This document shows, piece by piece, positions 44,444 through 45,139 of a stretch of DNA of 64,000 bases. Numbering within the stretch: position 1 is the first letter of the stretch; the number at the start of each line of letters is the position of its first letter. The notes under the pieces are model-generated. The model was not told where the DNA came from and searched no databases. It saw nothing but the letters and a program-made list of their open reading frames with translations. The position numbers were made by a program, and so were the translations under genes. The stretch lies in the NCBI RefSeq assembly GCF_000024185.1, contig NC_013790.1, positions 1,263,501 through 1,327,500 on the forward strand. Direction: 5' to 3'. The DNA comes from Methanobrevibacter ruminantium M1 (lineage in GTDB: Archaea; Methanobacteriota; Methanobacteria; Methanobacteriales; Methanobacteriaceae).

Positions 44444-44649
44444 CAAATTCCTCATTTTTCTTTTTAGATATCTATATGTTTGTTTTAGTTTAATAATCTA
44501 TATGTTTTGTTTATCGTATTTTTTCTTTTTTAATCTTGATTTTCCTTTAAAATTATTTTGAACAAATATTTTTATATGATTTCTAATTTCTTTTTATATT
44601 TTATCTTTTTTTCTTAAAAAGCGAATATTTATATATAATAGAAGAGAAA

Positions 44650-44880
44650 TAAAAAATCAAAGGAGAGAATTAGTCTCTCCATTTGATTTGGAGATACAAA
44701 CTAATTGTGCTTATCATCAATGAGATAATAGGCATTAGAGTTTGTATCTCTTTCTCCGCTATAATATATATCACCCCCTATAACAGTTTTAGGATAAATT
44801 CCTTGGAAAGTTCCCTTTAGGATTTAATCCCTTAGGAAAGATTCTTCAGAAAAAATCCATTCTAAACTTGCTACAATATT
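44650..44880 (-). ncRNA. candidate structured RNA B with terminator hairpin
   Basis: Read on the minus strand, a TATA box (CATATATAAA, about 44904-44894) predicts a start in AATATTGTAGC near 44875. The RNA then has two 28-base imperfect repeats (44845-44789), an isolated GGGGGTGAT, a long hairpin with 12-15 paired bases (44750-44739 with 44702-44691), and a 15-pair hairpin (44689-44654, loop CTAAT, one bulge). The last is followed by TTTTTT, like a terminator. On the plus strand a second TATA box (44626-44640) also faces the hairpins, so the strand is not certain. One minus-strand frame of 40 codons ends in the long hairpin but has no proper start. Confidence 0.5.
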
Positions 44881-44951
44881 ATTCTGTTTTTTTCTTTATA
44901 TATGGATTTTGAGAGCATTTGAAAAGTATTATTGGCTAATTTTAATGTATA

Positions 44952-45139
44952 GTTTACTATTTAAAATTTTAAGTGTTTTGGTTTACTATTTATAATATAT
45001 AGTTAATTTACTGCCTTTTTTTAATCATTTTTTTACTATTTATTCCATATGGTTTACTTTGGTTTTGGTTGGTTTACTATTTATTTTATATAGTTTACTT
45101 GGATTAGGGTCAGTTTATTATTTATTTCATAGGGTTTAC
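44952..45139 (+). promoter_or_regulatory. phased GTTTAC array upstream of aroA'
   Basis: GTTTAC-like hexamers stand at 45031, 45052, 45072, 45093, 45113 and 45134, spaced 21, 20, 21, 20 and 21 bases, with two more at 44952 and 44981. They are arranged as three 41-base units each opening with (G/T)TTTA(C/T)TATTTATT. The spacing equals two turns of DNA, so a protein could bind all sites on one face. The same motif and 41-base spacing occur at 31913. Confidence 0.75.

Follow-up and report, generated by a model that had tools for sequence, protein, structure and literature searches.

A tandem array of palindromic sites upstream of a putative structured small RNA gene in Methanobrevibacter ruminantium M1, probably its control region

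Repeated palindromic DNA sites beside a promoter are known from the archaeal regulator TrpY, whose TRP boxes have the sequence TGTACA. Short palindromes dispersed in intergenic DNA are known as REP or REPIN repeats and occur with a RAYT transposase, and short hydrophobic peptides with a charged C-terminus are encoded by the very stable, folded mRNAs of type I toxin-antitoxin systems, e.g. Hok, Fst and AapA. The locus described here lies in a stretch of 64,000 nucleotides of the genome of Methanobrevibacter ruminantium M1 (NC_013790.1, positions 1,263,501 to 1,327,500; hereafter the window, in whose coordinates all features are given unless noted otherwise). Like the TRP boxes, its array consists of repeated palindromic sites beside a promoter. 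In contrast to them, the site is a 27-bp palindrome, GTTTACTAT...ATAGTAAAC, which occurs in up to several tandem copies and has another predicted factor, and its apparent client is a structured RNA gene, whereas TrpY-type sites serve a biosynthetic operon. TGTACA is missing from the palindrome consensus, so the array does not belong to the TRP boxes, and a protein-binding array distinct from them is the best reading; on this point our results agree with the initial annotation, which had proposed a factor other than the TGTACA-box regulator.

The same annotation had recognised an array of GTTTAC sites, in which it saw helical phasing and the cooperative loading of a protein along one face of the DNA. 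The spacing that it gave holds: positions 45031, 45052, 45072, 45093, 45113 and 45134 follow each other at 21, 20, 21, 20 and 21 bp, in units of 41 bp. The sequence itself holds only in part, as an exact GTTTAC is found at four of these six positions (45031 reads TTTTAC and 45113 reads GTTTAT); two additional exact copies occur at 44952 and 44981. A total of six GTTTAC in 188 bp is far above chance, the maximum in 300 Markov shuffles of the window being two. The true unit of the array is, however, the 27-bp palindrome GTTTACTATTTATTATAAATAGTAAAC and not six independent GTTTAC boxes, and the array comprises four copies of this palindrome and one half copy (Table 1). The right arm has GTTTAC in place of GTAAAC in three of the four copies, and therefore each palindrome presents two GTTTAC-like boxes 20-21 bp apart. 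The step of 20-21 bp is thus the fixed distance from arm to arm within one palindrome, and the regularity reflects mostly the length of the site and not a phasing between sites. Elsewhere in the genome, the pitch of tandem arrays is 24, 33, 38, 41 or 42 bp, at odds with a free helical phasing of 20-21 bp, and because the pitch varies and most copies of the RNA gene described below have a single palindrome, cooperative loading along one face is left without support. Identical repeats with unique spacers, as in CRISPR, were not found either: in the 38-bp array the repetition extends over the whole unit, and the units diverge.

Table 1. Features of the array, the leftward promoter and the putative RNA gene, in window coordinates.
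Feature	Position	Strand	Evidence or remark
Structured RNA gene: 5' hairpin, then three-way junction (closing stem and two hairpins)	44620..44877	-	Fold z, homologs, covariance-model matches
TATA-like TTTATATATAAT on the 3' side of the RNA gene, directed inwards; possible antisense promoter	44628..44639	+	In 9/9 copies inspected
Candidate small ORF, GTG start, 34 aa MIYIIAEKEIQTLMPIISLMISTISLYLQIKWRD	44670..44774	-	26-codon C-terminal frame open in 9/9 copies tested; hydrophobic span
TATA box of leftward promoter CCATATATAAAG	44894..44905	-	Position relative to motif conserved in RNA-gene copies
Promoter-proximal motif AATAATACTTTTCAAATGCTCTC	44911..44933	-	Genus-wide 14-mer core; just before TATA box
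Half palindrome GTTTACTATTTA, preceded by AATGTATA	44952..44963	+	Exact 12-mer match
Palindrome copy 1 GTTTACTATTTATAATATATAGTTAAT	44981..45007		PSSM 33.2; 3 mismatches vs consensus on minus strand
Palindrome copy 2, right arm GTTTAC	45031..45057		PSSM 22.5
Palindrome copy 3, right arm GTTTAC	45072..45098		PSSM 30.9
Palindrome copy 4, most degenerate of the four	45113..45139		PSSM 13.7

The orientation of the promoter-proximal motif (plus-strand letters GAGAGCATTTGAAAAGTATTATT) and of the TATA box indicates that a leftward promoter occupies 44894-44933 and that the array abuts its upstream side. The motif, TTTTCAAATGCTCT, is found throughout the genus: its 14-mer core occurs 36 times in genome G000 (0 in the reversed control) and 10-31 times per congener, and in the other-strand reading a TATA box follows about 10-15 nt on, mostly succeeded by the start of a divergent gene. 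Its loci form an apparent genus-wide regulon of a putative factor. At loci with a palindrome nearby the orientation of the motif is constant, with one weak exception. However, among 23 motif loci picked regardless of palindromes only one carries a palindrome (score at least 10) on the upstream side, which rejects the motif as a general partner of strong palindromes; tight pairing therefore characterises the RNA gene together with some further loci. Each genome has 10-36 motif sites immediately before a TATA box, some of them near DUF763-like or RNase III-like genes. At two loci (L254, 1531-1683; L255, 1363-1497) the motif adjoins the start of tandem repeats of 46 and 30 bp, and a further motif locus (L237, G016:C6) precedes a stretch with a fold z of -6.1 that has only a weak 32-bp match to the minus-strand RNA of the window.

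Downstream of the promoter lies what is a previously undescribed, strongly folded, putative small RNA gene, with a predicted RNA of about 258 nt. The minus strand from 44875 to 44620 folds at -86.6 kcal/mol (z = -8.7), and z reaches -10.0 and -9.7 in two further copies. A DNA search in the genus, in which palindromes played no role, recovered, besides a second M. ruminantium copy (genome positions 2840936-2841113), copies in G018, G005 (two), G008 and G007, every one of them with a palindrome upstream. A diverged copy in G016 was spotted at a palindrome locus, and covariance models added copies in G002 and a third in G005, which brings the total to ten copies in seven genomes with a shared fold and compensatory changes. 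In alignments trimmed by hand, 18 of 55 pairs are changed on both sides, compared to 6.1 in shuffles (none of 500 reaches the observed value) and 3-9 in slid controls; the RNA thus has the covarying secondary structure that defines a structured RNA family, although the near identity of the copies in G007 and G008 means that the independent lineages are few. The order palindrome, motif, TATA box and RNA is kept in all ten copies, including two found blindly by the covariance models (G002 C23 and G005 C137); any copy that entered the fit of the model agrees with it necessarily, so that these two are the independent ones. The palindromes are degraded in G002 (PSSM 8.7) and G005 C311 (13.4), the motif is altered in G005 C137, and the distance from palindrome to motif varies from about 3 to 85 bp. 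Outside the genus a two-hairpin covariance model found nothing (138 genomes of the family). No Rfam family reached the gathering threshold in the window, a relaxed threshold returned only a chance-level bantam match (E 0.56), and identity with a known RNA family was rejected on these grounds.

The palindrome itself is dispersed in the intergenic DNA of this genome and genus-wide. Its 12-mer GTTTACTATTTA occurs 31 times in the 2.94-Mb genome (2 in the reversed control), the whole 27-bp site gives 31 strand-matches with at most 3 mismatches in this genome (0 in the reversed control), and a symmetrised matrix (PSSM) at a score of at least 12 has no match in 424 kb of shuffled sequence. Palindrome-like matches inside genes were weak and were set aside. 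In a collection of named genomes the exact pattern matched only two contigs, both of uncultured Methanobrevibacter, and none was found in viral contigs; a strong palindrome of another genus, GTAAACTATATATAATAAATAGTAAAC, separates a divergent cytosine methylase gene from an McrB-like gene (L223, G100:C15:23987). The word 'palindrome' does not occur in the main text of the M. ruminantium genome paper (PMC2812497). Most palindromes in the genome are at genes without the minus-strand RNA. Several positions recur between orthologous genes; examples, among others, are the position before the MYYYKLES gene (G000, G007 and G008) and, in five genomes, the one separating a TldD-like gene from the adjacent gene. 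In several alignments of palindrome loci a conserved block extends from the palindrome through the downstream TATA region while the remaining intergenic DNA has diverged; close pairs, e.g. G007 and G008, are uninformative here because the whole region is identical. The palindrome is thus a conserved site at orthologous promoters, as operators and upstream activating sites are. We consider it likely that the array serves as the control region upstream of the leftward small RNA gene (44877-44620), composed of palindromic sites, most likely for a dimeric DNA-binding protein, together with the genus motif and the TATA box.

Alternatively, the palindromes might be dispersed repeats of the REP or miniature-transposon type, multiplied in tandem and devoid of a regulatory role, in which case their proximity to promoters would be incidental. 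Their high copy number in one genome and the differing pitch of the tandem arrays are in keeping with this explanation, as is their placement: of the 69 site groups that were classified, tandem genes flank 41 and divergent genes 19, but 9 are flanked by convergent genes. Moreover, palindromes in intergenic DNA flank a mobile-type gene, DUF3800, on both sides at fixed distances in three species, a likeness to REP/REPIN that suggested a RAYT-like partnership. Against this, the palindrome precedes the same motif in all ten RNA-gene copies, the blind ones included, and is the conserved block at orthologous promoters amid diverged intergenic DNA. A DUF3800 relative was found in only four of the 19 genomes of the genus (some of them incomplete), whereas palindromes occur in most of the 19. 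Two observations weaken the partnership: palindromes are also found in congeners with no DUF3800 match, and in other genera they are mostly missing from the DUF3800 units. Unlike REP/REPIN-RAYT systems, the palindromes thus stand at promoters, without a DUF3800 gene in most congeners, and have no tyrosine transposase; a repeat tied to the protein of a mobile gene in the same genome was not found. Overall, we regard a non-regulatory dispersed repeat as unlikely.

The DUF3800 genes deserve a description of their own. Around those bracketed by palindromes (L091, G000:1777580-1779274; L093; L092), the sites lie some 157 bp upstream and some 800 bp downstream of the start codon, at distances conserved in G000, G003 and G013. 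Within the Methanobacteriaceae, DUF3800 genes are present in 55 of 138 genomes, many of them as fragments. A conserved, apparently structured RNA, GAACCUAUAGCCACCUAAUUGACC...GUCGCC...GACRAGGAC...UAUAGGCU...ACCUUCUAAUCUU, lies 3' of DUF3800 genes at loci L091-L094 and L098-L123 (e.g. L091, 2109-2250) and has no match in Rfam. Some of its copies share sharp ends of about 0.8 kb, as a mobile unit would, and one DUF3800 unit (L107, G097:C9) is flanked by a perfect 22-bp direct repeat, TATCCAAGGTTCTGGAAGTAAA.

The initial annotation had linked the array to aroA', i.e. to an operator on whose phased GTTTAC boxes a regulator of aromatic amino-acid genes would load. In favour of this link, the array occupies the intergenic DNA preceding aroA', and a bidirectional action is conceivable. 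However, its last site ends 256 bp short of the aroA' start codon, it adjoins the conserved promoter of opposite orientation and the minus-strand RNA gene, and the other palindrome loci reveal no aromatic-pathway theme. In none of 29 relatives was a palindrome found within the 1.5 kb searched upstream of aroA', most of these loci having a different upstream neighbour; the absence of the site in these relatives led us to reject the operator, which we consider very improbable. Least credible of all is an RNA hairpin (terminator or processing signal), as a near-perfect inverted repeat might suggest, because none of 13 arm pairs is changed on both sides among 26 aligned sites, 500 of 500 shuffles pair at least as well, and the array folds as RNA no better than shuffles (z = -0.5).

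With no compensatory change between its arms, the palindrome looks like a DNA site bound by a protein, and each half is conserved independently, as is expected of a protein dimer. Under our preferred reading, an upstream control region of the RNA gene, we infer that a putative dimeric factor would bind the 27-bp palindromes immediately upstream of the genus motif and the TATA box and, once bound, would modulate the adjacent leftward promoter, activation and repression both being possible. The number of palindromes, four and a half here and one at the second gene copy of the same genome, would probably set the strength of this effect, and the extra palindromes at the window gene probably arose by local tandem duplication.

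What the RNA does may be approached from its reading frames. One sense frame ends at a stop in the loop of the last hairpin, and in each of the nine copies tested its preceding 26 codons contain no stop, in contrast to 33 and 10 stops in the other sense frames; the mean amino-acid similarity in this frame exceeds that of column-permuted alignments (p = 0.0005). The predicted peptides, of 26-34 aa, are hydrophobic with a positive C-terminal end, and no Pfam family matched the four searched. The RNA may accordingly encode a tiny membrane peptide. A ribosome-binding-like GGGGUGAU pairs with the 3' end of the RNA in a long-range stem of the predicted fold. The window ORF starts with GTG, and a standard in-frame start after the ribosome-binding site is missing in G005 C311, G016, G002 and G005 C137. 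The TATA-like sequence on the opposite strand overlaps the closing stem, and its conservation is inseparable from that of the stem.

A candidate frame for a hydrophobic peptide, with a ribosome-binding site predicted to be locked, would give the RNA a form resembling a type I toxin mRNA. As in Hok, Fst and AapA, a short hydrophobic candidate peptide with a charged C-terminus would be combined with a very stable mRNA fold (here predicted), a putative ribosome-binding site paired with the 3' end of the RNA, and a TATA-like sequence on the opposite strand. Unlike these mRNAs, the gene is archaeal and several of its copies lack a standard start codon. The locus might then be an archaeal type I toxin-antitoxin-like unit, in which a folded mRNA would encode a membrane peptide of 26-34 aa, with its ribosome-binding site locked by the RNA 3' end, a possible antisense promoter, and transcription gated by the tandem palindromes; we put this forward as a tentative and rather doubtful proposal. 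According to the abstract of a 2025 article (PMC12390103), the type I systems found to date are confined to Proteobacteria, Firmicutes and Tenericutes.

For a genus of rumen-type methanogens, our study adds an undescribed, covarying structured RNA gene with ten copies in seven genomes and no Rfam match, and with it a palindromic DNA site of a putative regulator and a shared promoter motif. Provided that the conserved peptide exists, the gene would qualify as a possible first example of a type I toxin-like gene in archaea.
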